64,000 bases of DNA from IMG/VR virus record IMGVR_UViG_3300013104_000004, positions 19,484 to 83,483 of that record; one strand, written 5' to 3'. This stretch comes from a virus. Below the pieces are notes generated by a model that worked only from the letters and a program-made list of their open reading frames with translations, ran no database searches and was not told the DNA's origin. Below, piece after piece: positions 13,248 to 43,017 of this stretch (its first letter is position 1; every line of letters starts with the position of its first letter). The translations under genes were made by a program, and so were the position numbers.

Positions 13248-13507
13248 AGCTGGTCGTCCTCCCAGACGTCGTTGGTGCCGAACCAGGCCTCGTGCTCGGG
13301 GCGCCACAGCTCCGCGACCTTGCGGCCGGGCAGCCGGCACACCCGGAAGGTGAACTCGGTGACCTCCAGGTCGAGCACGAAGATCAGCCACGGCGTCAGC
13401 CGGGTCACCGCGGGGGAGAGCTCGCGGGTATACAGCGAGAGCTCTAGGCGCGTGTGCGCGCCGAGCTGCTTGGGCAGGTGCGGAGCAAATCGGTCAATCC
13501 AAGCCAC
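13244..13507 (-). CDS. Unknown small protein upstream of sigma factor
   Basis: 87 residues from GTG at 13507, with a strong GGAAGGAGG ribosome site. Hydrophobic beta-like core (WLIFVLDLEVTEFTFRVCRLPG) and an acidic end (TNDVWEDDQL). First gene of the leftward late operon; could partner or regulate the sigma factor, but nothing proves this. Confidence 0.65.
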   Translation of the reverse strand: MAWIDRFAPHLPKQLGAHTRLELSLYTRELSPAVTRLTPWLIFVLDLEVTEFTFRVCRLPGRKVAELWRPEHEAWFGTNDVWEDDQL

Positions 13508-20849: not shown

Positions 20850-20974
20850 GCGATTCCGCCACCGTGAGCACCTGCCCACAGATCCACTGCACCCCGGTCC
20901 GCCCTTCGGCGCCGGGGTTGCTTGTTGATGAGGGCCGCGTTCGCGGCACACGACGTCCCTTGAAAGGGGAGCAC
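20850..20974 (+). promoter_or_regulatory. Leader of ardA: motif copy, hairpin and TTGCTT box E
   Basis: GTGAGCACCTGCCCACAGAT (20863-20882) is one of the best copies of the dispersed motif. Next come CCCGGTCC/GCCGGGG pairing and the box TTGCTTGTTGATGAG (20918-20932), followed by GCCGCG-TT-CGCGGC. This places operator-like and promoter-like signals together in front of ardA. Confidence 0.6.
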
Positions 20975-21571
20975 GTGAGCACCACGACGACTGACACGAC
21001 GCCTCGCGTCTGGATCGGATCCCTGGCCGCCTACAACGCTGGCGACCTGCTGGGCGACTGGTTCGAGGCGATCGACTGCCCGACCGACGCTACCGAGTGG
21101 GTCACGCAGATGATCGCCCGCGGGCAGATCCCCGCCGGCGACGACTGGTACCTGACCGCCCTCATTCAGCGCCACGAGGAGATCTGGGTCTTCGACCACG
21201 ACAACTTCCTCGGCCTGCTGAAGGGCGAGTGCTCGCCTTCCGAGGCCCAGCGCCTGGCCCAGCTGCTCGACGACGTGCAGGACGACCAGCGCGCCGCCTT
21301 CGGCGCCTGGGTCGGTGAGGGCAACGAGCCCGACACCTTCGAGGACCACTTCCATGGCGTCCACGAGTCCTTCCGGGACTACCTCAACGACTTCGTGCCC
21401 GACGTGCCGGACGAGCGTCCGCCGTCGTGGGACCACGAGGCCTGCGCCCGCCACGACGCCGCCGAGTTCTTCCGGCGGTACTTCGACTGGGCGGCCTACG
21501 TGCGCGAGATGGAGCACGAGTACACCGTCATCCGCCTGGGAACCGACCAGTACGCGGTGTTCTCCGCATGA
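20975..21571 (+). CDS. ardA: ArdA-family antirestriction protein
   Basis: 198 residues from GTG with AAGGGGA ribosome site. The opening RVWIGSLAAYNAGDLLGDWF is the ArdA signature (xYxxDLAAYNxGxLxGxWxD). Later features also fit: IWVFDHDNFLGLLKGE, the acidic FEDHFHGVHESFRDYL, and the C-terminal EFFRRYFDWAAYVREME...TDQYAVFSA. ArdA proteins mimic B-form DNA with their acidic surface and block type I restriction enzymes, protecting incoming phage DNA. It has its own leader with the TTGCTT box and a motif copy, which fits early expression. Confidence 0.88.
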   Translation: MSTTTTDTTPRVWIGSLAAYNAGDLLGDWFEAIDCPTDATEWVTQMIARGQIPAGDDWYLTALIQRHEEIWVFDHDNFLGLLKGECSPSEAQRLAQLLDDVQDDQRAAFGAWVGEGNEPDTFEDHFHGVHESFRDYLNDFVPDVPDERPPSWDHEACARHDAAEFFRRYFDWAAYVREMEHEYTVIRLGTDQYAVFSA

Positions 21572-22130: not shown

Positions 22131-23036
22131 ATGCGCGCTCACGCCTTCCGGGAGACGCACTTCACCGGCAACATCATCTGCGACCGCTGCGGCCTGCTGC
22201 CCCTCGACAGCGAGGACAGCGACAGCGCCTGCCCTCGCACCCTCGCTGAGTTGAGGGACGAGATCCTGGCCAACCTCGACGAGACGTACGACCTGGTCTT
22301 CGTCGCGTACGACGACAAGTTGACCGACGAGCAGACCGCCGCCCTGGTGCGCGGCGACTTCGAGGCGATCTGGGACTCCACCGACGAGTGGACCTGCGAC
22401 TCCAGCCACGAGGGCGCCAAGTACCACATCGCGGAGCACCTTGCCGACGCGATCCGCACCTTCGAGGCGGCGGACGATGACGACTACACCGACCTCTCGG
22501 ACTCCTTCGAGTTCTCCGCGGAGTACGACGAGGTGCGCGAGCTGATCATGGACCGCGACGCCGGCCAGTGGTTCGACGAGTTGATCGGCAACACGCCCGA
22601 TCCGCTCCTTCGGGTGCCGCTCGTCGACGAGGACCACGCGCTCGAACCGAGCATCGCCACGCCGGCCGACGTGCTCACCGCCTGCGGCTTGCCGCACACG
22701 CCGGGCAACGTCCAACTCGCGAACGACCTGCTGGCCAACGTGCCCTCCAGCGTCGGGATGATCTACGCCCTCGCGACGGTGGACCTGGCCGTCGTGAACA
22801 TGATCCCGTCCGACGCCTTCGCGACGATCACCGGTCCGCACCTGCTGATGGGCAACCCGTTCGCGGGGGCCTACCACGCGGAGGGTCCCTTCGAGGGCTC
22901 GGTGAGCGTGGAGCGGGATGACCTTCGCACGGACCGCGACGCCTTCGGGTGCTCCTGGGACGAGTGCGCCGGGCTCGCCTCGGTCAGCTACTACGCGGCC
23001 GAGATTGCGGCGGCGCAGATCGAGGTGGCCGCGTGA
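22131..23036 (+). CDS. Unknown acidic protein with CxxC start
   Basis: 301 residues. IICDRCGLLPLDSEDSDSAC near the N-terminus is Cys-containing; the middle is extremely acidic (FEAADDDDYTDLSDSFEFSA); the C-terminal half is more globular (TPADVLTACGLPHTPGNVQL, VERDDLRTDRDAFGCSWDEC). Acidity like ArdA could suggest DNA mimicry, but no fold evidence. Confidence 0.65.
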   Translation: MRAHAFRETHFTGNIICDRCGLLPLDSEDSDSACPRTLAELRDEILANLDETYDLVFVAYDDKLTDEQTAALVRGDFEAIWDSTDEWTCDSSHEGAKYHIAEHLADAIRTFEAADDDDYTDLSDSFEFSAEYDEVRELIMDRDAGQWFDELIGNTPDPLLRVPLVDEDHALEPSIATPADVLTACGLPHTPGNVQLANDLLANVPSSVGMIYALATVDLAVVNMIPSDAFATITGPHLLMGNPFAGAYHAEGPFEGSVSVERDDLRTDRDAFGCSWDECAGLASVSYYAAEIAAAQIEVAA

Positions 23037-23425
23037 GGACCTTCGAGCCGAAGAAGACCTTCATCACGGGGGAGTGGCTCCACGACCTCGACCCCCGACC
23101 CGCCTTCGAGGGCTACCTCTACGGCTACTGGAACGGGTGGGCCAGATGGACCACCACGCGCGCCGTCATCGAGCGCTTCCTCGTGGTCCACCACGAGACC
23201 ACCGACGCGGAACTCCCGATCTGGACCTTCGACGGCGACGTGCTCGTCGTGCACCCGCTCGACGAGGACGACGACGAGATCCGCATCGAGCCCGAGGGCG
23301 ACCTCTACGACGTCAGCCTCGGCTACGTCTGGGAAGAGGTCCGCTACTTCCCGGGCACCAACATCCAGCCCTACGACCTCACGGGGACGGCGCTCGCCGT
23401 CGTCACCGTGCCGGAGACACCGTGA
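23033..23425 (+). CDS. Unknown protein before methyltransferase
   Basis: 130 residues from GTG. Aromatic-rich (EGYLYGYWNGWARWTTTR) then acidic LVVHPLDEDDDEIRIEPEGD. Stop overlaps the methyltransferase GTG. Family unknown. Confidence 0.65.
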   Translation: MRTFEPKKTFITGEWLHDLDPRPAFEGYLYGYWNGWARWTTTRAVIERFLVVHHETTDAELPIWTFDGDVLVVHPLDEDDDEIRIEPEGDLYDVSLGYVWEEVRYFPGTNIQPYDLTGTALAVVTVPETP

Positions 23426-24426
23426 ACGCACCCCTGTCCTACGCCTCGACGTTCACCGGTATCGGTGGCTTCGAGGTCGGCTTCGACTCGATGGGCTGGG
23501 AGAACCGGCTCATGGTCGAGGTCAACGACCACTGCCGGACGATCCTCGCCCGGCACTTCCCGAACACACCCCTGATGGGAGACATCCGTGACGTTCCCGG
23601 ATCCGCGCTCGACCGCCCCGACGTCCTCGTCGGCGGCTTCCCTTGCCAGGACACCAGCGTCGCCGCACCCCACCGTGCTGGGCTCGCTGGCGCTCGCTCC
23701 GGTCTCTTCTGGGAGTTCCACCGACTCCTCGACGAGCACCTCCGACTCGTCGACGAAGCGCGACCCCGGTGGGTCGTCATCGAGAACCCCGAAGGGCTTC
23801 TCCGAAGTAACGAGGGACGGGACGCAGCCGCCGTCTTCGGTGGTCTGGAAGACCTCGGGTATGGGTGGTCCTACCGGGTGGTGGACGGGGGACACCTCGG
23901 CACAGCCCAGCGACGCCGTCGAGTTCTCGTGGTCGGCCATCGTGGAGGAGACCCCCGACCCGCATGGGCCGTTCTGGGTGACCCCGACGGTGGCGGCGAA
24001 GCTCCTGGCGCGCGTCGCCTCGGCCGGGCCCAAGGCGGACCCCGCTCTGCTCCAGGCCCTGTCGGACCTGCTGGAGCCGTGATCTGGCGCAAGTCCGCCC
24101 GAGCCCGCAAGTCGATCGCCGCTGGCGGTTACGAGACGTGGGTGCCTGCGGACTTCGCCAACACCCTCACCGGCTTCGACGGCGGTGGCCCGGACCGCCA
24201 GACGCACCTGGTCGCGCAGCACGGCGGCCTTCGCGCCTTCACCCCGACGGAGTGGGAGCGCCTGCAGGGCTTCGCCGACGGCTGGACCGACGGCATGCCC
24301 GCATCCGCGCGGTGGACCGCCCTCGGCAACGCCGTGCACACCGGCACGTCGGCCTGGCTGGCGCGCCGCCTCGACGCGGTGCACCACCGCATCCCGCAGA
24401 TCAACCCGGCGCTCGCCAGCGCCTGA
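23422..24426 (+). CDS. DNA (cytosine-5) methyltransferase
   Basis: 334 residues from GTG. C5-MTase motifs in order: I FTGIGGFEVGF (11-21), IV GGFPCQDTS with catalytic Cys75, VI ENPEG (121-125, usually ENV), VIII QRRRRV (163-168), then a variable target-recognition region, IX-like WERLQGFADGW and X GNAVHTG. Transfers methyl from SAM to cytosine C5 in a specific sequence, most likely to protect phage DNA from restriction. No cognate nuclease is near. In residues about 140-215 the third-position composition is abnormal because another gene is read in an alternate frame (see 23588). Confidence 0.9.
   Translation: MNAPLSYASTFTGIGGFEVGFDSMGWENRLMVEVNDHCRTILARHFPNTPLMGDIRDVPGSALDRPDVLVGGFPCQDTSVAAPHRAGLAGARSGLFWEFHRLLDEHLRLVDEARPRWVVIENPEGLLRSNEGRDAAAVFGGLEDLGYGWSYRVVDGGHLGTAQRRRRVLVVGHRGGDPRPAWAVLGDPDGGGEAPGARRLGRAQGGPRSAPGPVGPAGAVIWRKSARARKSIAAGGYETWVPADFANTLTGFDGGGPDRQTHLVAQHGGLRAFTPTEWERLQGFADGWTDGMPASARWTALGNAVHTGTSAWLARRLDAVHHRIPQINPALASA
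23588..24082 (+). CDS. Nested gene inside the methyltransferase (alternate frame)
   Basis: Up to 164 residues; true start uncertain. The last 80 codons or so (SVVWKTSGMGGPTGWWTGDT ... SDAVEFSWSAIVEETPD ... TPTVAAKLLARVASAGPKAD) show the strong G/C third-position bias expected of real coding, whereas the methyltransferase frame there does not. The product resembles a small protein seen overlapping or beside phage dcm-type methyltransferases, with the pattern W..DAs..SLS.ILET....F.lsp.a...iL.Ra...gk.lpp.L. Function unknown. Confidence 0.6.
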   Translation: MTFPDPRSTAPTSSSAASLARTPASPHPTVLGSLALAPVSSGSSTDSSTSTSDSSTKRDPGGSSSRTPKGFSEVTRDGTQPPSSVVWKTSGMGGPTGWWTGDTSAQPSDAVEFSWSAIVEETPDPHGPFWVTPTVAAKLLARVASAGPKADPALLQALSDLLEP

Positions 24427-24436
24427 GAGGACCAAC

Positions 24437-24847
24437 ATGATCGCCCCACACGAGGCGGCAGCGACCTTCAATGCCGCGACCGCCGCCGTCCGTGCGACGG
24501 CGTGGAGTCTCGAACAGGAGGCCGCGCTCGCCGCCGTGCGACTCCTCGCCGCACACGCCCTCGACGCGGTGCCCGACGCAACGCACCTGCTCATCGAGTC
24601 CTCCGACCAGGGCAACTACATGATGTGCACGGCCGGCTCGGTCGAGCGCGACGGCGTGACCGTCGCCAGTGGGACCGACTGGGACGACAGGTGCGAGCTA
24701 CACGACCTCGACGCCGCCGCTTCCTGGCTCACATGGGGTGCCGCGGCCTGGGAGCAGTACGCCGACCCTTTCCACCCGTACACGAACATGCGCGGCGGCT
24801 ACGTCGCGCTCGACCTGCGGCGCATTGCCGCTGACCAGGAGGCCTGA
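24437..24847 (+). CDS. Unknown protein
   Basis: 136 residues. Ala-rich helical first half (AATFNAATAAVRATAWSLEQ), then VPDATHLLIESSDQGNYMM and an acidic core. Stop overlaps the next ATG. No family recognised. Confidence 0.65.
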   Translation: MIAPHEAAATFNAATAAVRATAWSLEQEAALAAVRLLAAHALDAVPDATHLLIESSDQGNYMMCTAGSVERDGVTVASGTDWDDRCELHDLDAAASWLTWGAAAWEQYADPFHPYTNMRGGYVALDLRRIAADQEA

Positions 24848-25008
24848 TGCACACCGACGAGGACAGCATTCTGGCGATCGTCGACCAGCAGGGCTGGAAC
24901 GACGCGACCCTCCTGGCCCTCATGGGCGAGTTCATCTACCGCCACCCGCGGCGCACGCGCCGCTTCCTGGAGTACGTCCGCCGAGTCCAGCGCGAGGAGA
25001 ACGCCTGA
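24847..25008 (+). CDS. Unknown small protein
   Basis: 53 residues (MHTDEDSILAIVDQQGWNDA...), helical, ending in a basic segment (RHPRRTRRFLEYVRRVQRE). Coupled by ATG/TGA overlap on both sides. Unknown. Confidence 0.6.
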   Translation: MHTDEDSILAIVDQQGWNDATLLALMGEFIYRHPRRTRRFLEYVRRVQREENA

Positions 25009-25319
25009 TGCCCACCCTGAACGACCTGACCGTCACCTTCGACGAACGTGACGACCTGACCGTCGGCACCTTCGTCGGCTACAACGGCCGCTGCGAGGTC
25101 CGCGTCGTCACGTCCAGCGCGACCGTCTACTTCACCGAGGACCACTTCCTGGCCCTCTTCAACGAGCTCGGCAAGCACCTGTTCCGCTCCTTCGAGATCG
25201 AGGCCTTCGACGACGCCCACGGGCACAACGTCAGCCTGAGGACGACGCCGCTTCTCGACGAGGACGTGCACGTCACGCTCAACGGCGAGGTGCTCTTCAA
25301 GGGCGAGGTGACCCGGTGA
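25008..25319 (+). CDS. Unknown protein
   Basis: 103 residues. Beta-rich and acidic (DLTVTFDERDDLTVGTFVGY, VHVTLNGEVLFKGEV). Starts at the overlap with the gene before. Unknown. Confidence 0.65.
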   Translation: MPTLNDLTVTFDERDDLTVGTFVGYNGRCEVRVVTSSATVYFTEDHFLALFNELGKHLFRSFEIEAFDDAHGHNVSLRTTPLLDEDVHVTLNGEVLFKGEVTR

Positions 25320-25558
25320 CGATCCAGTCCGACCGCGTCATCAGCGCCGCCGTCGACCTGCTGGGCCTGCCCGGTGACCGACCGTTCCAGAGCCCGGAGT
25401 ACCAGCGGGCCATCGTCGAGATGACCACGAGCCTGGTCTCGGACGCACCCTTCCACGACGTCGTCGAAGACGGCGACGAGCGCAAGGCGATCGTCGCCAC
25501 GCTCCTCGGCGTGCCGCCCGAGCCCGACCTTCGCAGCCCGCTCGACGGGTTGCTGTAG
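25316..25558 (+). CDS. Unknown small protein
   Basis: 80 residues from GTG (VTIQSDRVISAAVDLLGLPG...). No motif; ends GVPPEPDLRSPLDGLL. Coupled upstream. Followed by a short C-rich gap without features. Confidence 0.6.
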   Translation: MTIQSDRVISAAVDLLGLPGDRPFQSPEYQRAIVEMTTSLVSDAPFHDVVEDGDERKAIVATLLGVPPEPDLRSPLDGLL

Positions 25559-25601
25559 CGCCCCCCGACCAGACAACCTCCCCCTTCCCCAGGAGCCAGG
25601 A

Positions 25602-25838
25602 ATGCCCAGCACGAACGAGAACCGCGACAAGGCGCCGAGCGACGACGCCGTCCGCCTTGTCGGTGCGGTCGCCGCGAGCGACGCCATCGCACACATGACC
25701 GCCATCTCGACCTTCAACCTGGCCACCGCGGTCAGAGCGTTGCAGTCGGGCATGGGCGGCACGCTCACGTTCCACCTGCCCAGCCAGCGCGGCAAGGCCG
25801 CGCAGGTCGTCTACGAGGGCTTGGCGCCGACGCGCTGA
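25602..25838 (+). CDS. Unknown small protein
   Basis: 78 residues; ATG preceded by CAGGAGCCAGGA. Ala-rich helix (GAVAASDAIAHMTAISTFN). The stop codon lies within the motif copy at 25835. Unknown. Confidence 0.6.
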   Translation: MPSTNENRDKAPSDDAVRLVGAVAASDAIAHMTAISTFNLATAVRALQSGMGGTLTFHLPSQRGKAAQVVYEGLAPTR

Positions 25839-25855
25839 GCACCTGCCCAGAAAGG
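25835..25855 (+). promoter_or_regulatory. Dispersed motif copy overlapping a ribosome site
   Basis: CTGAGCACCTGCCCAGAAAG runs directly into AAAGGAG, the ribosome site of the 25864 gene. A protein bound here could affect transcription into the Ku-ligase unit. Confidence 0.45.
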
Positions 25856-25863
25856 AGTGCGAG

Positions 25864-26052
25864 ATGGTCTGCCCCGTCTGCGGTGGCGCGCCCGTCGAGT
25901 CGGTGGTCTACGACTACCTGACGTGCACGAAGTGTCGGGAGCTCCTGAGTCCCGGCGAGCTGGTCCGGCGCAAGACGCGCCGGACCCGCGTCCGCTACGC
26001 CCGGGCCAACGGGCACACCAAGCACTACGGCACGAAGAAGGAGACGTCGTGA
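25864..26052 (+). CDS. Zinc-ribbon protein
   Basis: 62 residues. CPVCGGAP (3-10) and CTKCREL (about 22-28) form a zinc ribbon; the rest is basic (VRRKTRRTRVRYARANGHTK). Likely nucleic-acid binding. First gene of the run that leads to Ku. Confidence 0.65.
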   Translation: MVCPVCGGAPVESVVYDYLTCTKCRELLSPGELVRRKTRRTRVRYARANGHTKHYGTKKETS

Positions 26053-26549
26053 TCGAGATCCTCATCGAGCGTGACCCCGACAGCTTGACCGACGTCACGC
26101 TCTTCATCGACGGCGAGGAGGTCCCCGCCCGGGAGATCGACTACCGGCACATCGACCCCGGCGTCGGCTACCTGTTGTCGGAGTGGCGGGAGGACCGCGC
26201 CGACATCAAGGCGGCTGGCCACAGTCGCGCGTTCACCGCGGCGGCACTCGCAGCGCACGACGCGGCCGAGCGGTCCCCGTACATCGAGGATGACCTGGCC
26301 GAGCCGCTGTACGAGAAGTGCGCCGAGTGCCACCTCTTCGTCGAGCCGAACAGCTCGCACGACAGCGCGGACCCCGAGTACGCAGCCACGCTCGCCGAGT
26401 ACGTGCACCTGCATCGCGGCGACAAGGCGGACGACGAGCTCGACGCGAGCCACGAGGCCCGCCCTTCCGGCGAGATCGCCAACCTCACCCAGTGGCGCAT
26501 GTACGGCCCCGAGGCCATGCGCGCCCGCTTCAACCCACGAGAGGAGTGA
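26049..26549 (+). CDS. Unknown protein upstream of Ku
   Basis: 166 residues from GTG. LIERDPDSLTDVTLFIDGEEV at the start and a later CAECHLF zinc half-site with H residues (HDSADPEY...YVHLHRGD). No family recognised. Coupled to its upstream neighbour. Confidence 0.65.
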   Translation: MIEILIERDPDSLTDVTLFIDGEEVPAREIDYRHIDPGVGYLLSEWREDRADIKAAGHSRAFTAAALAAHDAAERSPYIEDDLAEPLYEKCAECHLFVEPNSSHDSADPEYAATLAEYVHLHRGDKADDELDASHEARPSGEIANLTQWRMYGPEAMRARFNPREE

Positions 26550-26553
26550 CCGC

Positions 26554-27378
26554 ATGGCCAACGTCGCATCTGGCGTCGCGCTGAGCTTCGGGCTCATCAC
26601 CGCGTCCGTGTCCATCCAGGCAGCCCTGGAGGCCAAGGCCAAGACGGGCAACGTCATGGTCTGCGACACCGGACACCCGCCGCACCAGATCCGCGCACCC
26701 CGCGTGTGTGACGAGTGCAACGGCGAGGTGCCCTACCAGCAGCTGAAGAAGGCACGGCCCGTCGACGGCGGGCTCGTGGTCCTGGAACGGGAGGAGATCG
26801 AGCAGGCGTCCGTCGACGCCACGAAGTTCAAGAAGAAGGCCGGTGTCACCGCGCACCCGGTCGAGCAGGTCCAGGTCCACACCGCGACCGGCGAGAAGAT
26901 GTACTACCTCACGCCCGACAAGGGCCACGAGGACGGGTACACGACGCTCCTGGCCCTGGTGCTGAACCACCCGGAGCTCGCGTTCGTCACGCAGTGGACG
27001 CCGCGCACCGCGCTGGGCCAGTTCCAGCTGATCGTCCACGACGGCGTGCTCGCCTTCCAGGAGCGCACCGAGTCAGCCGGTTCCGTCCGGCCGGCGCCCG
27101 TGCTCGACCTCACGGTGAACGACGCCCTGGTCGGGCTCGCTGAGCAGGTGCTGGCGATGCCCGCGTCTGTCAGCGACTACGACCCGGCGACGTACCGGGA
27201 CGGCTACGAGGACCGCCTGGCCGCGATCATCGCGGGCAAGGAGGTCGTGGCTGCCACGACGACGAGCGCCACACCCATCGCGCCCGCGTCCGACCTGATG
27301 GAGAAGCTCCGCGCCCAGGTCGCCGCGGCGGCCCCGGCGCCGAAGCGGCGGGCCACGAGGAAGAAGGTGGCCGCATGA
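26554..27378 (+). CDS. ku: Phage Ku-like DNA-end-binding protein
   Basis: 274 residues; ATG after GAGAGGAGTGACC. Prokaryotic Ku features: the start (SGVALSFGLITASVSIQAA) matches the xGxIxFGLVxIPV opening, VCDECNGEVPYQQLKKA matches the R(V)CxxCG-E-V segment, DGGLVVLEREEIE matches the YVxxxDEEL part, KMYYLTPDKG and the C-terminal DYDPATYRDGYEDRLAAIIAGK match the conserved Ku core. Ku dimers encircle broken DNA ends and recruit a ligase in non-homologous end joining. Ku genes are known in a few mycobacteriophages, where they help join cos ends. The basic tail KRRATRKKVAA is typical. A ligase follows two genes on. Confidence 0.85.
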   Translation: MANVASGVALSFGLITASVSIQAALEAKAKTGNVMVCDTGHPPHQIRAPRVCDECNGEVPYQQLKKARPVDGGLVVLEREEIEQASVDATKFKKKAGVTAHPVEQVQVHTATGEKMYYLTPDKGHEDGYTTLLALVLNHPELAFVTQWTPRTALGQFQLIVHDGVLAFQERTESAGSVRPAPVLDLTVNDALVGLAEQVLAMPASVSDYDPATYRDGYEDRLAAIIAGKEVVAATTTSATPIAPASDLMEKLRAQVAAAAPAPKRRATRKKVAA

Positions 27379-27638
27379 GCATGACGACCGACGCGTACGC
27401 CTGCCGGTACGTGGTCGACGGCACCGACACCGACGGCACGGTGTGGAACCGATGCCTCGTCCATGACGAGCTGGCGCCCTCGAACGAGGCGCCATGCTCC
27501 GACGCCGGCGCCGACGATGCGGTGCGCAGGTGCCCTGAGTGCGACGCCGACATGCACCTCGTGCCCTACAACTTCAACGGCTTCGAGCACACCGACTGGG
27601 GCCTCGCCTGCACCGACTGCGACTACCACGACCTCTAG
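27375..27638 (+). CDS. Small zinc-binding protein between Ku and ligase
   Basis: 87 residues. CPECDADMHLV and CTDCDYHDL form a zinc ribbon at the C-terminus, plus C11 and C27 earlier. Overlaps the Ku stop. Its place between Ku and ligase suggests an accessory of end joining, but the domain is generic. Confidence 0.65.
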   Translation: MSMTTDAYACRYVVDGTDTDGTVWNRCLVHDELAPSNEAPCSDAGADDAVRRCPECDADMHLVPYNFNGFEHTDWGLACTDCDYHDL

Positions 27639-27708
27639 GAGGACCCGATCTACCGTCTGATCCCGCGCGAGATCCGTGCGGACCTGCACGCCTACGAACA
27701 GGAGAGAC
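27639..27708 (+). other. Gap with ribosome site and open frame lacking a standard start
   Basis: AGGAGG stands nine bases before ATCTACCGTCTGATCCCG, an open frame (IYRLIPREIRADLHAYEQ...) that would need an ATC or CTG start and runs on into the ligase region. It may be a degraded gene or use a rare start. The ligase GTG at 27709 has its own GGAG. Confidence 0.3.
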
Positions 27709-28608
27709 GTGATCCCCATCCAACCGATGCTCGCCTCGCCCAGCAGCGGAGCGAGCAACCGAAGACCGCTCGACCTCGGCCACCTCGCCACCGCCGGTGG
27801 CTGGGTCGCAGAGGAGAAGCTGGACGGCATCCGAGCCATCGTCGAGTCCGACGGTGGCTCGACTCGTATCTGGAACCGGAGCGGCGTCGACATCAGCGAC
27901 CGCTTCCCTGAGATCGCCCGGCAGCGGCTGCTCCCCGTCGTGCTCGACGGGGAGATCGTCGCGACGGACGGCCTCTTCCAGACCGTCGCCACGCGCGACA
28001 AGCAGACGAGCGGGTACGGGGCGGCCGCGCGCCGCAACCCGTGCCGCTTCGTCGCGTTCGACCTGCTCGCCTCGCACGACGAGCCCCTGACGCACCTGCC
28101 CTACAAGATGCGCCGCCAGCTGCTGCGCGGCGTGTGCGGCAACCGGCGCACGGTGCGCCCGGTGCGGCAGTCGGGGAACATCCTCGCCCTCTGGGACGAG
28201 GTGCTGACTGCCGGCGGCGAGGGCGTCATCTGCAAGCAGCTGAACTCGGTCTACCTGCCCGGCGCCCGCGCCAGCTCGTGGGTCAAGTTCAAGGCCGTGC
28301 AGCGCCTGACGGCAGTCGCCGTCGGGTACGAGCACGGGCTCAACCGCGACTTCGGAGCGATCCGGCTCGCGCTCATCGGCAACGACGGTCCGATCCCCAT
28401 CGGGAAGGTCGGCACCGGCTGGAAGGAGAAGCACGGCAAGCAGATGCAGGCGCGCCTCGACGCCCAGGAGATCTTCCTGGTGGAGATCGAGGCCCTGAAC
28501 CGCACTGCCGACAACGCGCTGCGCTTCCCGGTCTTCCGGGGCGAGCGCACAGACCTGGACCTGACCGCGGCCAGCGCCGACCAGCTCGCGCTGCTGCCCA
28601 TCTACTGA
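27709..28608 (+). CDS. ATP-dependent DNA ligase (LigD/LigC-type core)
   Basis: 299 residues from GTG. Nucleotidyltransferase motifs: I EEKLDGIR with catalytic Lys37, Ia/III RSG (57-59) and DGEIV (80-84), IIIa VAFDLL (115-120), IV EGVICK (171-176), V WVKFK (191-195); an OB-fold region follows (GAIRLALIGNDGPIPIGKVG). Seals nicks or broken ends using ATP. Its size fits the short ligases that act with Ku in bacterial end joining. With Ku at 26554 it forms a compact two-protein end-joining set; no polymerase or primase domain is attached. Confidence 0.88.
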   Translation: MIPIQPMLASPSSGASNRRPLDLGHLATAGGWVAEEKLDGIRAIVESDGGSTRIWNRSGVDISDRFPEIARQRLLPVVLDGEIVATDGLFQTVATRDKQTSGYGAAARRNPCRFVAFDLLASHDEPLTHLPYKMRRQLLRGVCGNRRTVRPVRQSGNILALWDEVLTAGGEGVICKQLNSVYLPGARASSWVKFKAVQRLTAVAVGYEHGLNRDFGAIRLALIGNDGPIPIGKVGTGWKEKHGKQMQARLDAQEIFLVEIEALNRTADNALRFPVFRGERTDLDLTAASADQLALLPIY

Positions 28609-28618
28609 GGAGGAAGCG

Positions 28619-28855
28619 ATGGCGACGTACGGCGTCGAGATCGGCCACGACGTCCGGCGCTGGACCACCTACAGCGTTACCGACCCGACCGACGAGGAGC
28701 TGGCCACGCTGCGCGAGGGCGCCGACGAGGCGGTGGACCTCCTGCAGAGGATGGAGGCCGCCGGTCGGGCTGAGGGCGCCGGCTGGACGGACGAGGAGAA
28801 CCCTGACCCGTTCGACTGGGACCTGGACCCCGCCGTCGTGAGCGTCGAGGGCTGA
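28619..28855 (+). CDS. Unknown acidic small protein
   Basis: 78 residues (MATYGVEIGHDVRRWTTYSV...), very acidic end (DPFDWDLDPAVVSVEG). ATG after GAGGAAGC. Unknown. Stop overlaps the next start. Confidence 0.6.
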   Translation: MATYGVEIGHDVRRWTTYSVTDPTDEELATLREGADEAVDLLQRMEAAGRAEGAGWTDEENPDPFDWDLDPAVVSVEG

Positions 28856-29094
28856 TGCCGCGCCCCCCGAAGCAGTACGGCGTGCTGCTGTCCTGCGCGC
28901 CGATGGACCGCGACGACATCGACCGGCAGGTCGACGGACCGTTCGCCACCCGCGCCGAGGCGACCAGCTACGGCATCTCGGCCACGCGCTCCGGCATCGA
29001 GTACGAGGTCATGTCCCGCGTCCGCAACAACGACCCCTGGCGCTCCCTGCGCCACGAAAGCATCGCCGACGTCATCCGCCGGCGCTGGCAGTAA
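28855..29094 (+). CDS. Unknown small protein
   Basis: 79 residues (MPRPPKQYGVLLSCAPMDRD...), ending basic (HESIADVIRRRWQ). No recognised motif. Confidence 0.6.
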   Translation: MPRPPKQYGVLLSCAPMDRDDIDRQVDGPFATRAEATSYGISATRSGIEYEVMSRVRNNDPWRSLRHESIADVIRRRWQ

Positions 29095-29116
29095 CCCTTC
29101 ACAGAGAGGCATCCCC

Positions 29117-29377
29117 ATGGCGACTGACGCCAACGAGGTCGAGATCGAGACGACCAAGCTCTACGGCACCGGCATGAACCCCGAGGTGGAGAAGTTCCCC
29201 GTCGTCATCGACGCGATCGACGGGTCCAGTTCACGGACCTTCCACCTCACCGTCTCCGCAGCCGAAGAGCTGCGCAACGCCATCGACGACGCGCTCCACC
29301 AGGTGGAGTACCGCACCTTCGACGAGCCCGACCCCGACGTCGCGCACGACCGAGCACGAGAGGACGCCTGCTGGTGA
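29117..29377 (+). CDS. Unknown small protein
   Basis: 86 residues; ATG after AGAGAGGCATC. Acidic, with a TFHLTVSAAEELRNAIDDAL helical segment. Stop overlaps the next GTG. Confidence 0.6.
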   Translation: MATDANEVEIETTKLYGTGMNPEVEKFPVVIDAIDGSSSRTFHLTVSAAEELRNAIDDALHQVEYRTFDEPDPDVAHDRAREDACW

Positions 29378-29472
29378 ACGCGAGCAAGCCGGCCTTCGAG
29401 AGCGCCAACGAGCGCTTCGTCGCCAAGAACATCAACCCCCAGCCCAAGCGGAAGGACCCCAAGAACCCATGA
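29374..29472 (+). CDS. Small basic protein before MoxR gene
   Basis: 32 residues from GTG (VNASKPAFESANERFVAKNI...), basic Lys/Pro-rich end. Its TGA overlaps the ATG of the AAA+ gene. May mainly couple translation. Confidence 0.5.
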   Translation: MNASKPAFESANERFVAKNINPQPKRKDPKNP

Positions 29473-30623
29473 GCACCCTGCACACCGACTTCGCCGCCGT
29501 CCAGGCGGAGCTGAACGCCGAGTTCCCCGAGCGTCGCGACGCGGTCGAGGTCCTGACCCTCGCGCTCCTGACGGGGCAGCACTCGTTCCTGCTGGGCCCT
29601 CCCGGCACCGGCAAGTCCAAGCTCGCCCGCCGCTTCGTCGAGCACTTCCCGGGCGCGCGCTACTTCGAGACGCTGCTCTCGAAGAACCGCCCCGACGCCG
29701 CGGTGCTCGGCCCGTACGACATGGCCAAGCTGCGCGAGGAGAGCGCGTTCGTCCGCAAGGACGAGGGCTACCTCACGTCGGTGGACGTCTCGTTCATCGA
29801 CGAGATCGGCAAGATGTCCCCGACGTCGGGCCACGACATCCTGGCCGCGCTGAACGAGCGCATCAAGCACGAGGTCAGCAACGGTCGCTCCGCGCACCGG
29901 ATCCCGCTGCACTCGGTCATCACGGCGAGCAACGAGCTGCCGGCGGCCGAGTCCGAGGACGCCGCCGCGATGTGGGACCGGCTGCTGTTCCGCACCACGG
30001 TCGACTACATCGTCGGCAACACCGACTTCCAGACGATGCTGTCGGCCGTCGACGGCCCCATCGGCACGACGATCCCCTGGCCGCAGGTGCTGTACGTGGC
30101 CGAGGAGGTCCGGGACGTGAAGCTCACGACCGAGACGCTCGACGCCGTGGTCGCGCTGCGCGACACCTTCCGGCAGGAGGGCCTGTCCGTCAGCGACCGC
30201 CGCTGGCGGGACTCGATGGCCGCGGTCCGCGCCACCGCGTGGCTGCGCGGGTCGGACTCCACCGAGCCCGACGACCTCTACGCCCTGCGCTTCACGCACT
30301 GGGACAACGTCGAGACCATCGGCAAGGTCGCCCGCATCATCCTCGGGCTGATCTCCCCGGAGAACGAGGAGATCGCGACGCTGGCTGACGACGCCGCGGC
30401 GCTGGAGGCCGAGCTGGAGTCTCGCAAGGGCGAGGCGCGCGAGAAGATCAGGGCGTTCCTGGTCGAGGCCGGCGGGAAGAAGACGCAGGCGCAGGAGCAC
30501 ATCGTGGCGCTGCGCACGAAGGTCACCGCGCCCCGCCAGCTGGCCGAGCTCGACCGGCTCAACGAGCGCCTCGACGCCTTCCTGGCGCGCGGCAAGAGGC
30601 TCGCGGGCCTGGACAAGCTCTGA
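29469..30623 (+). CDS. MoxR-family (RavA-like) AAA+ ATPase
   Basis: 384 residues. Walker A GPPGTGKS (43-50), Walker B SFIDEIG (108-114), sensor-1 TASNELP with N155, arginine fingers in DRLLFRT (170-176) and sensor-2 DRRWRD (about 244-249). The spacing FETLLSKNRPDAAVLGPYD between Walker A and B is MoxR-like. The C-terminal 90 residues are a coiled coil. MoxR ATPases work with VWA proteins as chaperones that insert metals or remodel complexes. A VWA gene lies one gene downstream, the RavA-ViaA/MoxR-VWA arrangement. Confidence 0.85.
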   Translation: MSTLHTDFAAVQAELNAEFPERRDAVEVLTLALLTGQHSFLLGPPGTGKSKLARRFVEHFPGARYFETLLSKNRPDAAVLGPYDMAKLREESAFVRKDEGYLTSVDVSFIDEIGKMSPTSGHDILAALNERIKHEVSNGRSAHRIPLHSVITASNELPAAESEDAAAMWDRLLFRTTVDYIVGNTDFQTMLSAVDGPIGTTIPWPQVLYVAEEVRDVKLTTETLDAVVALRDTFRQEGLSVSDRRWRDSMAAVRATAWLRGSDSTEPDDLYALRFTHWDNVETIGKVARIILGLISPENEEIATLADDAAALEAELESRKGEAREKIRAFLVEAGGKKTQAQEHIVALRTKVTAPRQLAELDRLNERLDAFLARGKRLAGLDKL

Positions 30624-30862
30624 TGGCCGGGCGTTCGTTCATCCCCTTCGAGGCCATGACCGACGCACAGCAGGTCGAGCACCTTGTCGTGGCGCACGCC
30701 CTCGACGCGGAGTATTTCGACGACGGCCGCGACCCGCGCGCGTACTTCGCCGGGCTCACGGCCAGGGAGCGCGTCGCGTACTGGCACGACGCCGACCACG
30801 TCGAGGACCCCGAGGTGCTCGGCGACAGGCTCCGTCACGACCACGACAAGGAGGTGCGTTGA
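30623..30862 (+). CDS. Unknown small protein between MoxR and VWA genes
   Basis: 79 residues, acidic and His-containing (WHDADHVEDPEVLGDRLRHD). Starts on the TGATG junction and leads straight into the VWA gene. Could be a third component of the ATPase-VWA set. Confidence 0.6.
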   Translation: MAGRSFIPFEAMTDAQQVEHLVVAHALDAEYFDDGRDPRAYFAGLTARERVAYWHDADHVEDPEVLGDRLRHDHDKEVR

Positions 30863-32325
30863 TGTTCGGCTGGAGCGATGAGGAGGAGCACGACGACGCC
30901 GTCCCGCACGACCGCTTCGACCAGATGTCGTGGAACGGCATGCGCATGGAGTCCATCTCGATCGACGAGATGGTCAACGAGCTGTCCGTGAAGTACGACC
31001 ACGTCGAGGACTTCGCGCAGGACGTCTACTCGCTCCTGGCCAAGGGCGACCCGCGCGTGCGGGAGCCCGAGGAGATGAGCCTGTCGCACGTCCCGCTGCG
31101 CCAGGTCACCGACGAACTGCAGGACCTCACTGAGCTGAAGCGGCTCCGCACCTGGACCGTCGGCGACCCGTTCAACGCGGCCCTCGCCCTCGGATCCATG
31201 AAGGAGGCGCTGCAGGGCTCGCTCGAACGGGCAGCCCAGCTGAAGGGGCAGGCCGAGGCAGCGCAGGCCGCCAGAGACGCCGCACGACAGGCCGCGCAGG
31301 AGGCGGCTGACAACCCCGGAGATCCCGGGGCCGGCGAGGCCGCAGAGCAGGCGTCGGCAGCCGCCCAGGCCGCCGCTGACCACCTGCAGGCAGGTGCCGA
31401 GCAGCAGGCAGCCGAGGGCGCCCAGGCCATGCGCAAGGCCGTGAAGGACGCGCGCGAGGAGGTCGAGGAGGTCAACGAGTCGGCCGCCTCGTACGGCCTG
31501 GAGCCGGGGGAGTTCCAGCGCATGCCGGCCAAGGAGCGGTTCGCTCTGGCGCGCCGGCTGCAGTCCGAGAAGCTGCGGAAGTTCGCAGCGCTCATCGGGC
31601 AGTTCCGCCAGCTGGCGGCCGCCGAGTGGCGCCGCCGGTACAACGACGGCTCCGACGAACAGGTCGGTATCAAGCTCGGTGACGACCTCACCAGGCTCAC
31701 CGGCCAGGAGCTCATCAACATGGCCACACCCGAGCTGGAGGACGACTTCTGGCGCCGGTTCGTGGACAAGGAGCTGTGGGTCAAGGAGCTGCGGGGACGC
31801 GAGCGGGTCGGCAAGGGCCCGATCATCGTGGTCGCTGACGAGTCCGGCTCGATGGCCGACGAGGGCGAGCTCTGGGCCAAGGGCCTGGCGCTCGCGCTGC
31901 TCGACCAGGCGGGCCGCGGCAAGCGGGACTTCCACTACATCGGGTTCGCATCGGGCCCGCTGCGGGAGTTCTCGTTCCCCGGCGGGAAGGCCGACGTCGA
32001 CAAGGTCATCGAGATGGCCGAGGGCTTCCTCAACGGCGGCACGGACTTCGCGCGGCCGTTGCGGCGGGCGCTCGACCTGGCCATCGCCGCCGGCAAGGAA
32101 CGCCCCGACATCGTCTTCATCACCGACGGCGTCGCGGGCTCGCTCCCGTTCCTCGAAGAGTGGCGCCAGGTGCGCCACGAGCTCTCCATCCGCTGCTACG
32201 GGATCTTCGTCGCGACCGGCGGGTACGGCCTCCCTAGCGAGGTGCTCGAAGAGATCGCCGACGACGTCCGCACCATCGCGGACGTCACCAACACGTCGCA
32301 GGTCGCGGACATCCTCCGCGGCTGA
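30862..32325 (+). CDS. VWA-domain protein, partner of MoxR ATPase
   Basis: 487 residues. C-terminal von Willebrand A domain with a complete MIDAS: D326-x-S328-x-S330 (DESGSM), T394 in NGGTDF and D422 in ITDG. N-terminal part is helical with a long Ala/Gln-rich coiled coil (about 118-205) and the GEFQRMPAKERFALARRL stretch that resembles ViaA/CoxE proteins. MIDAS binds a divalent metal and contacts partner proteins. Encoded with a MoxR ATPase it likely forms a phage-encoded remodelling machine; target unknown. Confidence 0.82.
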   Translation: MFGWSDEEEHDDAVPHDRFDQMSWNGMRMESISIDEMVNELSVKYDHVEDFAQDVYSLLAKGDPRVREPEEMSLSHVPLRQVTDELQDLTELKRLRTWTVGDPFNAALALGSMKEALQGSLERAAQLKGQAEAAQAARDAARQAAQEAADNPGDPGAGEAAEQASAAAQAAADHLQAGAEQQAAEGAQAMRKAVKDAREEVEEVNESAASYGLEPGEFQRMPAKERFALARRLQSEKLRKFAALIGQFRQLAAAEWRRRYNDGSDEQVGIKLGDDLTRLTGQELINMATPELEDDFWRRFVDKELWVKELRGRERVGKGPIIVVADESGSMADEGELWAKGLALALLDQAGRGKRDFHYIGFASGPLREFSFPGGKADVDKVIEMAEGFLNGGTDFARPLRRALDLAIAAGKERPDIVFITDGVAGSLPFLEEWRQVRHELSIRCYGIFVATGGYGLPSEVLEEIADDVRTIADVTNTSQVADILRG

Positions 32326-32337
32326 CACCACGCCCAC

Positions 32338-32370
32338 GAAGGGGGCTGCCCATACCGGGTGGCCCCCTTC
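32338..32370 (+). terminator. Hairpin after VWA gene
   Basis: GAAGGGGGC (32338-32346) pairs with GCCCCCTTC (32362-32370); a weak T-run (TTCGTCAT) follows. Probably an intrinsic terminator separating the MoxR-VWA unit from the 32394 operon, which has its own GAAAGGAAC ribosome site. Confidence 0.75.
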
Positions 32371-32393
32371 GTCATACCCCCGAAAGGAACCTC

Positions 32394-33371
32394 GTGACCA
32401 CGCTCTCCGACTACGTCGACGGCGCAGGCGACCTGCCCCTGCTCGGCACGATCTGCATCAACACGACCTACGACGGCAGCTACGAGGTCGAGCTCGTCCA
32501 GGAGGTCTTCCAGGCCGAGGGGCTCGACACGAGCTTCATCCCGTCGCCGTCCGGCGCGAAGGACGCGTTCTCGAAGGCGATCACCAACCACAAGGAGACC
32601 AGCTACGTCCTGAGCAACGGGCACAAGGTCTCGATCATGCTCCGCGAGATGGACTCGTCGAACCCCACCGAGTACGCGGTGCGCGCGCTGGTGCGCGAGG
32701 AGCGCTCGACCAACGGCGAGTCGCTCTTCTACGACAACATCGGGGAGATCAAGCACTACCACGGCGTGCGCCGCGGAGCCGGCCGCCAGGTCGACGACAC
32801 CGCCGCCCGCCTCTACTGGGGGCTGGCCGCGAACAGCGACACCCTGGCCCTGTCCGACGAGGAGCGCGCGAAGATCCGCAACGTCGCCATCCGCGTCCAC
32901 AACGACTACCAGCGCTACCGCAGTTCGCTCGACGGCAAGAAGGTCCGGGCCATGGTCACGAGCTACCTGCGCCACCTCGACGCCATCAAGCTGAAGGACT
33001 CGGTCTACTTCGTCCCCGTCGCACACAGCGAGTCCGTCCGCGCGCTGCGCGTCGCCGTCTCCCACTTCGGCGAGTGCACGCTCGACGGCATCCCGCTCGT
33101 CGACTTCCAGGACCAGCGAGACCTCATCATCCGCACGTTCCAGGCCGATACCGACGACGCCATGAGCACGCTCGCTGGCCAGCTGCAGCAGGCGCGCGCC
33201 AACCCGTCCGCCGCCACATACGAGAGACTGCGCAAGCAGTACGACGAGCTCACCACCCGCACCCGCACCTACACCAGCACGCTCGGCGATTCCGTCGCCA
33301 AGACGACTGGCTCTCACGAGATCGTGAAGGCCGCGCTCGTCGCCCTCCAGACGGAACTGCTGGGCGGATGA
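32394..33371 (+). CDS. Unknown protein, possibly DUF6744-type
   Basis: 325 residues from GTG. LLGTICINTTYDGSYEVELVQEVFQAEGLDTSFIP, then KEAITNHK-like helices and a late coiled coil (TLAGQLQQARANPSAATYERLRKQYDEL). I recall a family of such proteins beside AAA/VWA genes in phages, but the match is not certain. The context suggests it belongs with the ATPase cluster. No catalytic motif clear. Confidence 0.65.
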   Translation: MTTLSDYVDGAGDLPLLGTICINTTYDGSYEVELVQEVFQAEGLDTSFIPSPSGAKDAFSKAITNHKETSYVLSNGHKVSIMLREMDSSNPTEYAVRALVREERSTNGESLFYDNIGEIKHYHGVRRGAGRQVDDTAARLYWGLAANSDTLALSDEERAKIRNVAIRVHNDYQRYRSSLDGKKVRAMVTSYLRHLDAIKLKDSVYFVPVAHSESVRALRVAVSHFGECTLDGIPLVDFQDQRDLIIRTFQADTDDAMSTLAGQLQQARANPSAATYERLRKQYDELTTRTRTYTSTLGDSVAKTTGSHEIVKAALVALQTELLGG

Positions 33372-33385
33372 GAAGGGGATCCGAC

Positions 33386-33883
33386 ATGACCAACCACCGC
33401 GCCTCCGCCGCCGTCCAGGACGTCCTGGATGCGGCCGCCATGCTCGGCCTCGCGTTCTCCAACGTGAAGCCCGGCACCCGCCTCGCCGCCCTGCGAGACA
33501 GCCTCAGCGGGCTGCAGCAGAAGCTCTCCCGCGTCGAGGCGATCCTCGCGATGGACGAGGACATCCGGCTGACCTTCGACGAGGGCACCGAGTTCACCAG
33601 CGACGAGCTGCGCGAGCTGTCCGAGCTGGAGAAGGCGGTCGCGTTCTCGCTGCCCGACAAGCTCCCCGGGCAGATCGACGCGCGCGTGCTCGACGGCCGC
33701 GTCATCGCCGGCCAGCTGCAGCAGGCGCTCGACGGGCGTCGCATCGACATCGTCTGGGACTCCACGGCGCGTGTCGGGCACGTCAACATCGGCCCGCTGC
33801 TGGCCGACCTCGTCGAGCAGATCGACCCCCACGGTGAGGACGTCCCCGGCTTCTGGGCCGACGACGAGGAGGACGAGGCGTGA
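33386..33883 (+). CDS. Unknown acidic protein
   Basis: 165 residues; ATG after AGAAGGGGATCC. Helical first part (LAALRDSLSGLQQKLSRVEA), acidic end (DVPGFWADDEEDEA). Unknown. Stop overlaps the following GTG. Confidence 0.65.
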   Translation: MTNHRASAAVQDVLDAAAMLGLAFSNVKPGTRLAALRDSLSGLQQKLSRVEAILAMDEDIRLTFDEGTEFTSDELRELSELEKAVAFSLPDKLPGQIDARVLDGRVIAGQLQQALDGRRIDIVWDSTARVGHVNIGPLLADLVEQIDPHGEDVPGFWADDEEDEA

Positions 33884-34029
33884 CGCTCGAAGATGCCGTC
33901 GAGGCCCTCCGGGAGCGAGGCTTCGGCTACGACCGGCTTGACCAGCTCGCCTGGGACTTCCTCGCGGAGGAGTGCGACGGCCCGACCCGTACCGCCTTCA
34001 TCGACTTCCTGCTGCGCGCCGACGCCTGA
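33880..34029 (+). CDS. Unknown small protein
   Basis: 49 residues from GTG (VTLEDAVEALRERGFGYDRL...). Acidic and helical. Too short for a family call. Confidence 0.55.
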   Translation: MTLEDAVEALRERGFGYDRLDQLAWDFLAEECDGPTRTAFIDFLLRADA

Positions 34030-34067
34030 CGTCGCGCGCCCCCCCTACTGAACGGAGACCACACCGC

Positions 34068-35096
34068 ATGAACACCCGAGCCGTGATCGAGAAGCGACTG
34101 CAGTCCATGCCTGGCCCGAAGAGCGGCGAGAAGCTCTTCGAGGGCACCACCTACCCCCGCGAGTGGGACGAGTACGTCGGTCAGGACGAGGCCAAGCGCT
34201 ACCTGCGCGCGTCGTGCGTCTCCGCCAAGATGCGCCAGGAGCGCCTGGAGCACGTGCTCATCGCGACCGGCCACGCCGGCATCGGCAAGACCGCGATCGC
34301 GAAGCTCACGGCCGCCGAGATGGGCGTCGGGATGGTCGAGGTCCAGGGCTCGATCTCCGAGGCCGAGGCGCTGCGGATCTTCGCCAGCATGAGCGACGGC
34401 GACATCCTCTTCTGGGACGAGATCCACCAGGCCGTCGCCGGCGGCAAGGCCAAGGCCGAGTGGCTACTGCCCGTGCTGCAGGACGGCGTGATGATCTCCA
34501 GCCGCGGCGTCACCCCGATCCCCGACATCACCATCGTCGGGGCCACCACCGACATCCAGAAGCTGCCCGAGACGATCATCGATCGGTTCGTCGTCAAGCC
34601 CGCCATGGAGGAGTACACGGACGAGCAGGCGCTGACCATCGCGCAGGTCACCTCGAAGAAGATCTTCCGCGGCCTGCAGCTCCCGTTGCCCGACGAGCAC
34701 ACGTGCGCCGTCGTGGCCCGCGCGGCCAACAACAACCCCCGCTCGATCACCGCGCTGATGCGCACGCTGCGCGACTCCGCCCTGTCGGAGAACGCCATCG
34801 TCACCCCCGCGGGCCTCTACTCCACGGACGCGATGTTCCGCTGGACCGGCATCACGCCGGACGGCCTGGACAAGCTCGCGCAGGACTACCTGGAGGTGCT
34901 GCACGTCCAGTTCTCTGGCAAGGGCGGCGAGAAGTCCATCGCGGCCGCGCTGGGCGAGCCGACGCCCCCGCGCCACACCGAGAAGCTCCTCATCCGCAAG
35001 GGCTTCATGCGCATCATGCCTGGCGGCCGCGAGCTGACCGCCGAGGGCATGGACCGCGCCCACCAGGTCCTCGTCGACCGCGGCTACGACATCTGA
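34068..35096 (+). CDS. RuvB-like Holliday-junction AAA+ ATPase
   Basis: 342 residues; ATG after GGAGACCACACCGC. Follows RuvB layout: EYVGQDEAKRYLRASCVSAK (38-57), Walker A GHAGIGKT (68-75), Walker B ILFWDEIH (113-120), VLQDGVMISS matching the RuvB MEDG region, sensor-1 VGATT (157-161), arginine finger in IDRF (171-174), sensor-2 NNPRSI (about 229-234), and a C-terminal winged helix ending LIRKGFMRIMPGGRELT. RuvB drives branch migration with RuvA; no RuvA-like gene is visible, but a RuvC-like resolvase is at 43014. May use a different adaptor or serve as a loader. Confidence 0.82.
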   Translation: MNTRAVIEKRLQSMPGPKSGEKLFEGTTYPREWDEYVGQDEAKRYLRASCVSAKMRQERLEHVLIATGHAGIGKTAIAKLTAAEMGVGMVEVQGSISEAEALRIFASMSDGDILFWDEIHQAVAGGKAKAEWLLPVLQDGVMISSRGVTPIPDITIVGATTDIQKLPETIIDRFVVKPAMEEYTDEQALTIAQVTSKKIFRGLQLPLPDEHTCAVVARAANNNPRSITALMRTLRDSALSENAIVTPAGLYSTDAMFRWTGITPDGLDKLAQDYLEVLHVQFSGKGGEKSIAAALGEPTPPRHTEKLLIRKGFMRIMPGGRELTAEGMDRAHQVLVDRGYDI

Positions 35097-38296: not shown

Positions 38297-38340
38297 GGGC
38301 CCCTGACCTCGTGATATGCGAGGCAGGGGCCCTTCGTTTT
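38297..38340 (+). terminator. Strong terminator between attP core and integrase
   Basis: GGGCCCCTG...CAGGGGCCC (38297-38305 / 38324-38332) with inner CCTCG/CGAGG pairing and a TTCGTTTT tail. A very good intrinsic terminator; it would stop transcripts coming through attP from the left and protect integrase from read-through, so int needs its own promoter after it. Confidence 0.88.
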
Positions 38341-38345
38341 ACCCT

Positions 38346-38366
38346 GTGGGTGCACCGTGGGTGCAC
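38346..38366 (+). repeat. Two direct copies of GTGGGTGCAC, 11 bp apart
   Basis: GTGGGTGCAC at 38346-38355 and 38357-38366, one helical turn apart, match both halves of the palindrome at 38145 (ATGGGTGCAC). Sites on both sides of the tRNA-like core look like P and P' arm sites for integrase; this pair also overlaps the likely int promoter. Confidence 0.6.
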
Positions 38367-38411
38367 GGTCAGGGGCGCGGAGGGCTCTCCGGACGTACGA
38401 GGGGAGCCGAA

Positions 38412-42712: not shown

Positions 42713-43017
42713 CACGCACTCACTTTCTGGCCGGTCCTGAACTGGAGCCGGAGCCCGTTGATGTAGCCCTGCCGCTGCTTCGCCGGGAGCCGCGCGCGGT
42801 CTCCCTCCGTCATGCCGCCCCAGACCCCCTGGGCCTCCTCGTGGTTCACGAGGGACTCCAGGAGGCAGGACTGGACGAAGGGGCAGCGCGCGCGGCACAC
42901 GGCCGCCGCCTGTGCCTGTCGCGCGGCGTTCGGGTCGTGCCACAGCTCCGGGTCGTTCTGGCAGACCTGCGAGCCGTCGGTCTGCGCGATCCACTCCCAG
43001 TCGTGGTCGCGCCTCAC
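42712..43017 (-). CDS. whiB: WhiB-family Fe-S regulator
   Basis: 101 residues from GTG. C19, C41, C45 and C51 (VCQND ... VCRARCPFVQSCL) bind the Fe-S cluster; the usual CxxC is here C-x3-C, slightly odd. The G-V-W-G-G turn (GVWGGMTEGDRARL) is diagnostic and the C-terminus is basic. Wbl proteins bind sigma factor region 4 and act as redox-sensitive regulators; phage versions can shut off host WhiB2 or alter exclusion. Confidence 0.88.
   Translation of the reverse strand: MRRDHDWEWIAQTDGSQVCQNDPELWHDPNAARQAQAAAVCRARCPFVQSCLLESLVNHEEAQGVWGGMTEGDRARLPAKQRQGYINGLRLQFRTGQKVSA

Follow-up and report, generated by a model that had tools for sequence, protein, structure and literature searches.

The locus described here raises the question of whether a phage can bring into its host both a Ku protein and the ligase that works with it. 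Phage Ku has so far been known mainly from mycobacteriophages, with the ligase supplied by the host. In PMC3706429, PMC4351075 and PMC7719229, which cite Pitcher 2006, circularisation of the Omega and Corndog genomes (4-base 3′ overhangs) is ascribed to phage Ku together with host LigD. An earlier note on the present DNA had proposed that a Ku homologue, a small zinc-ribbon gene and a stand-alone ATP-dependent ligase make up a compact, phage-encoded end-joining unit.

The phage genome

The window, meaning the whole 64,000-nucleotide stretch of DNA that was analysed, covers bases 19484–83483 of an 83,483-base IMG/VR virus record. An exact 123-base repeat is present at both ends of the record, so the 83.5-kb sequence probably represents the whole genome, assembled as a circle; the repeat says nothing on the physical ends of the DNA in the virion. 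The record also encodes a terminase large subunit (L012), tail fibre genes and an endolysin, which together with an integrase indicate a temperate tailed phage. For the terminase, 50,697 phage records contained a single relative (37% identity); the phage, itself known from metagenomes alone, therefore belongs to an essentially uncultivated group. The only hint as to the host comes from the GC content (approx. 70%) and from the primase matches, of which actinobacteriophages make up most (190 of 252 records), and would place it in the Actinomycetota. The genes that matter for the argument are listed here by window position.

12501–13391, minus strand: phage-encoded sigma-70-type factor (PHROG 351, 4e-21; Pfam regions 3 and 4)
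20864–21571, plus strand: ArdA-type antirestriction protein (PF07275, 1.5e-17; PHROG 2059), in the rightward gene block of Ku
23398–24426, plus strand: orphan-like C5 cytosine DNA methyltransferase (PF00145, 1.2e-39), upstream of Ku and near the pair in four of seven relatives
26554–27378, plus strand: Ku homologue, 274 aa, with an ATG start and the Shine-Dalgarno sequence AGGAG upstream
27375–27638, plus strand: small Cys-rich ORF, 87 aa, overlapping the Ku stop and lying between Ku and ligase
27709–28608, plus strand: ATP-dependent DNA ligase of the LigD LIG type, 299 aa, with nucleotidyltransferase and OB domains only
29469–30623, plus strand: MoxR-type AAA+ ATPase (PF20030, 5e-33), a conserved neighbour (six of seven relatives)
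30859–32325, plus strand: von Willebrand A (vWA) domain protein (PF13519, 2.8e-8), in five of seven relatives, one of the two contigs without it ending before its position
33972–35096, plus strand: RuvB-like AAA+ protein (PF05496, 9e-21; a clamp loader according to PHROG)
38316–39698: integrase
43014–43781, minus strand: RuvC-like resolvase

The RuvB-like AAA+ protein and the RuvC-like resolvase thus occur in one phage genome, which encodes a primase-helicase too. Two neighbouring proteins of approx. 890 aa are encoded on the minus strand at 58562–63974; neither gave a match in Pfam or PHROG.

The Ku and ligase proteins

The gene at 26554 encodes a clear Ku homologue, as the earlier note had claimed and as profile searches bear out. 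The protein matched Pfam PF02735 with 39 bits (cut-off 25; E 1e-9), which places it in the Ku β-barrel domain family, and PHROG 4873 (‘Ku-like DNA end binding’) at 2e-22 over residues 8–273. Against NCBIfam TIGR02772, the bacterial Ku equivalog, it scored 73 bits over residues 9–255, well below the cut-off of 150, and is therefore a divergent homologue. The nearest solved structures by sequence are those of bacterial Ku (8v53, 9i91 and 9vnq; E from 1e-15, for 8v53, to 2e-9). The monomer was modelled with moderate confidence (pLDDT 75), and a fold search with this model yielded the Ku–DNA structures of B. subtilis and M. tuberculosis as best matches (E 3e-10).

Beyond a core of approximately residues 1–230, the model has a helix at residues 245–259, within SDLMEKLRAQVAAA, that matches the minimal C-terminal region of bacterial Ku, and two of its residues, D247 and L248, are invariant across eight Ku sequences. 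The protein ends in a basic tail, PKRRATRKKVAA; a positively charged tail is present in seven of the eight members of its clade, the exception being the Ku of contig L002. The conserved residues suggest that Ku itself contains a putative zinc knuckle with four ligands. All eight sequences have His41 and Cys52 as well as either Cys or His at position 55; Cys37 is found in seven, the eighth having a Cys two alignment residues away. The Ku proteins of LittleE, Catdawg, WXIN and L026 have one His and a CxxC in common with this clade.

The ligase gene had been located correctly, except for a start placed a little too far upstream. We prefer GTG 27709 to 27676, given AGGAG directly upstream and the agreement with the starts of relatives. 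The protein matched PF01068 at 1.7e-30 and PF04679 at 4.7e-7. Its top NCBIfam model was TIGR02779 (NHEJ_ligase_lig) with 161 bits, yet under the cut-off of 228, and it scored lower (80 bits) against NF006078, which we take to be a LigC-like model. The nearest solved structure by sequence is 1vs0, the LIG domain of M. tuberculosis LigD (1.3e-30). The predicted structure (pLDDT 90) folds as ATP-dependent ligases do, archaeal ligases being the best matches in the fold search with LigD LIG close behind. Residues of the KxDG, FD, EG, KxK and RxD motifs are invariant across eight ligase sequences which, with the PF01068 profile match, confirms the proposal of an ATP-dependent ligase with all nucleotidyltransferase motifs. 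POL and PE domains are absent from the ORF, 299 aa leaving no room for a phosphoesterase. The LigD Prim-Pol domain (PF21686) gave no match in this genome or in eight further records that carry Ku and a ligase, although it did match in control genomes, so the window ligase, the sole PF01068 ligase of its genome, is not LigD. By sequence, Ku and ligase are both closest to bacterial end-joining proteins.

Genes and motifs around the pair

The small Cys-rich gene between Ku and ligase does exist as an ORF, with zinc-ribbon matches that are sub-threshold and no family above cut-off. Its membership of the unit did not hold up: the neighbourhood comparison found no counterpart in any of seven relatives, and we rejected it as a third component and regard it as a passenger.

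A dispersed motif had also been reported near 25835 as part of the upstream control of Ku. The motif is real, with a copy, TGAGCACCTGCCCA, at 25836. It corresponds to a 14-bp palindrome, TGNGCANNTGCNCA, which with at most one mismatch has 13 matches in the window (2606, 13471, 13582, 14375, 15962, 20865, 25836, 27523, 34247, 35325, 42682, 44736 and 54586) against 2.5 expected; no shuffle reached 13. These sites are perhaps operators of a phage regulator. The claim of upstream control is weak, the copy at 25836 being one of a dispersed set and lying upstream of Ku at a distance of approximately 700 bp, with two genes in between, and we discarded it as a Ku promoter element. No sigma-70-like promoter was found in 22500–33500. 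The phage's own sigma-70-type factor may explain the lack of a sigma-70-consensus promoter in this region.

Conservation and recurrence of the pair

A first scan with the single Ku sequence gave no result and alignment-based scans were required. When IMG/VR was scanned with a profile of this Ku, seven further contigs came up, all of which carry the ligase, with identities to the window copies of 33–61% for Ku and 31–67% for the ligase. The order is kept in all eight, Ku first and the ligase downstream on the same strand, with gaps (window included) of −1, 330, 619, 705, 757, 1045, 1176 and 4786 nt. The two genes overlap by 1 nt in L007 and are 4.8 kb apart in L014, and the genes between them vary among relatives. 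A wider order is also kept, running methyltransferase, Ku, ligase, MoxR, vWA, DUF6744 and RuvB-like genes, but among the genes compared only Ku and the ligase occur in all eight contigs. Since the neighbourhood (methyltransferase, MoxR, vWA, RuvB-like) is syntenic, part of the linkage reflects the shared ancestry of one phage group. The values of dN (approx. 0.3–0.45) and dS (approx. 0.6–0.9) are uninformative on selection at such divergence and GC content.

The MoxR and vWA genes (window 29469–32325) themselves form a pair that adjoins Ku and ligase in most relatives. Two narrow peptide-pattern scans of genome contigs revealed no prophage or bacterial home of the Ku–ligase pair, a result of low weight. 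Plasmids yielded only ordinary Ku (27–30% identity), and neither Ku nor the ligase matched the PADLOC defence library.

We placed the window Ku in a tree of 35 phage Ku proteins, eight of the window type and 27 others including LittleE, Catdawg and WXIN. The window type forms one separate clade (support 100/100), and all eight members are ligase-paired. Despite its match to PHROG 4873, the window Ku falls outside the mycobacteriophage Ku clade (100/100). The paired state changes five times on the tree, with at least three changes forced by well supported branches; gains and losses are indistinguishable. A PF01068 ligase is present in four of 26 other Ku-bearing viral records (L092, L026, L078 and L094), of which L026 had already surfaced through the ligase search. 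In each, Ku is followed on the same strand by a ligase gene within approx. 4.3 kb: in L092 the ligase start overlaps the Ku stop by 4 nt, and the distance is approx. 1 kb for L026, 2.9 kb for L078 and 4.3 kb for L094. The chance of four such placements is approx. 1e-6 under uniform gene placement, a figure that makes the case look stronger than it is, since phage genes are not uniformly placed. On one viral contig, L021, Ku and ligase are approx. 57 kb apart. The LigD Prim-Pol domain was found in none of the 26 other Ku-bearing records. The pairing of Ku and ligase is kept throughout this phage group and is found again in phages unrelated to it.

Two of these records have further features. The overlapping Ku and LIG-type ligase genes of L092 (positions 7995–9658; IMGVR_UViG_3300032046_000016) lie beside a ParB-like gene, and a second ligase match is found elsewhere in the record. 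L094 (record G054, 458,729 bases) is of jumbo size; besides Ku, this viral contig has two PF01068 matches.

Comparison with known systems

The proposal that this phage, unlike the mycobacteriophage Ku cases, brings a stand-alone ligase agrees with what was found in four isolated Ku-bearing mycobacteriophages, LittleE, Catdawg, WXIN and Nebkiss, none of which has an ATP-dependent ligase; in Nebkiss, Ku is reduced to an 80-residue fragment. As described in PMC3706429 and PMC4351075, the Omega/Corndog Ku (clusters J and O, PHROG 4873) is likewise a phage-encoded single-domain protein that probably joins phage DNA ends. According to PMC7719229, citing Pitcher 2006, this type works with host LigD, whereas the window type has its own ligase in all eight contigs.

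With bacterial Ku and LigD the phage pair shares the minimal C-terminal helix, a mostly basic tail and a ligase closest to LigD LIG. It differs in that the ligase is a separate LIG-only gene in a genome without a Prim-Pol match, and in a Ku that scores far under the TIGR02772 cut-off. Bacterial stand-alone ligases of the LigC type, LigC being able to serve as an end-joining backup (PMC7719229), are LIG-only like the phage ligase. The latter, however, scores lower on NF006078 than on TIGR02779, and adjoins Ku in a phage. Mu Gam, as presented in PMC8136500 (citing Bhattacharyya 2018), is also a phage Ku-like end-binder that promotes end joining, in combination with E. coli ligase; it relies on this host ligase, whereas the window phage encodes its own.

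Ligases of the Rhizobium phage vB_RleM_PPF1 type (‘non-homologous end-joining DNA ligase’) are small LIG-type enzymes approx. 30% identical to the window ligase, and PF02735 detected no Ku in phages PPF1, N28_2 and N1_10. The PPF1 ligase (L057:2827–3873) is annotated as ‘clustered with Ku protein, LigD’ in a genome without a PF02735 match, and this wording seems to be inherited from automatic annotation. We found no description of a phage Ku paired with its own ligase in the literature searched, which took in few subscription journals.

Discussion

We consider it probable that Ku and the LIG-only ligase form a minimal two-gene phage end-joining unit, in which Ku recruits the ligase for circularisation or resealing. 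Ku, probably as a ring-shaped homodimer, would thread onto free phage DNA ends, shielding and bridging them, and its core and C-terminal helix would bring in the phage ligase, which would seal the ends while skipping the polymerase and nuclease steps that LigD performs. With no end processing, such a unit would suit ends that are nearly ready for sealing, for example short cohesive termini or breaks made by restriction. Its most likely uses would be circularising the injected linear genome and resealing breaks that host defences make in phage DNA. In B. subtilis, LigD is recruited by the minimal C-terminal helix of Ku, for which packing against the LigD ligase domain is predicted; with Ku present, the isolated ligase domain joins nick-forming ends, an effect specific to the Ku core (PMC13201618). 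Taken with the helix and tail of the phage Ku and the intact motifs of its ligase, these bacterial precedents make a unit of Ku and a LIG-only ligase mechanistically plausible. The data establish what the genes are, that their motifs are intact, that they lie in a phage and that their pairing is conserved; that the two cooperate, and on which substrate and when, we infer. Weighing against the unit are the wide spacing of the two genes in L014 and L021, the L002 Ku without its basic tail, and the synteny of the neighbourhood.

The two proteins might instead share a gene block and do separate work, the ligase sealing nicks in replication or repair and Ku either shielding ends, as Gam does, or calling in host LigD. 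The M. tuberculosis LIG domain alone sealed nicks only (PMC9638933), which speaks for this and counts against the phage unit. More distant ligases also mostly occur in viral records without a PF02735 match (20 of 22, a count that may be too high since PF02735 missed two clade Ku found by tblastn), and the three Rhizobium phages carry the ligase without a PF02735 Ku. The window ligase is, moreover, the only PF01068 ligase of a genome with RuvB-like, RuvC-like and primase-helicase genes. We nonetheless regard separate work as unlikely: every member found of the Ku clade is ligase-paired, the Ku and ligase genes overlap in two unrelated phages, the best match of the ligase is LigD LIG and not a replicative ligase, and the phage Ku retains the helix that contacts LigD in bacteria. 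Very unlikely, in our view, is a larger system in which the MoxR ATPase and vWA protein load or remodel Ku–DNA complexes. MoxR follows the ligase in six of the seven relatives and vWA in five, and bacterial Ku, which remains on DNA once repair is done, is believed to require active removal (PMC13201618). Contig L014, however, has Ku and ligase with neither MoxR nor vWA found in the 20-kb stretch read, and the next ORF 3′ of the L092 ligase, judged by inspection rather than by profile, does not resemble MoxR. MoxR–vWA pairs are, besides, widespread without Ku.

A further alternative accepts end joining and differs over its main substrate, which would be breaks in phage DNA, made by host restriction or CRISPR systems or arising in replication, rather than the termini, with Ku and ligase belonging to a counter-defence block. 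This overlaps with the two-gene unit set out above, being the same machine put to a different main use, and as the principal role we find it doubtful, though not far-fetched. A counter-defence setting is favoured by ArdA and the C5 methyltransferase in the same rightward block, and a methyltransferase is near Ku and ligase in four of seven relatives too. No ArdA was found near Ku in the seven relatives, however, and the best studied phage Ku is tied, in PMC3706429 and PMC4351075 (citing Pitcher 2006), to circularising genomes with 4-base 3′ overhangs. Following the Omega/Corndog precedent, we would favour circularisation over break resealing, but only slightly.

More tentatively, the two-gene unit could possibly be a self-contained phage end-joining machine distinct from Ku–LigD, in which a divergent Ku clade has co-evolved with a LIG-only ligase, circularises or repairs phage genomes in hosts that lack their own end joining, and has arisen by several independent assemblies in unrelated phages. 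With Ku and ligase both supplied by the phage, the unit would be independent of host LigD. If so, this core of Ku and ligase, without polymerase or nuclease, would rank with the smallest end-joining kits in nature. Such a minimal pair would help to test what Ku alone adds to joining, and may find use in bacteria that lack end joining.
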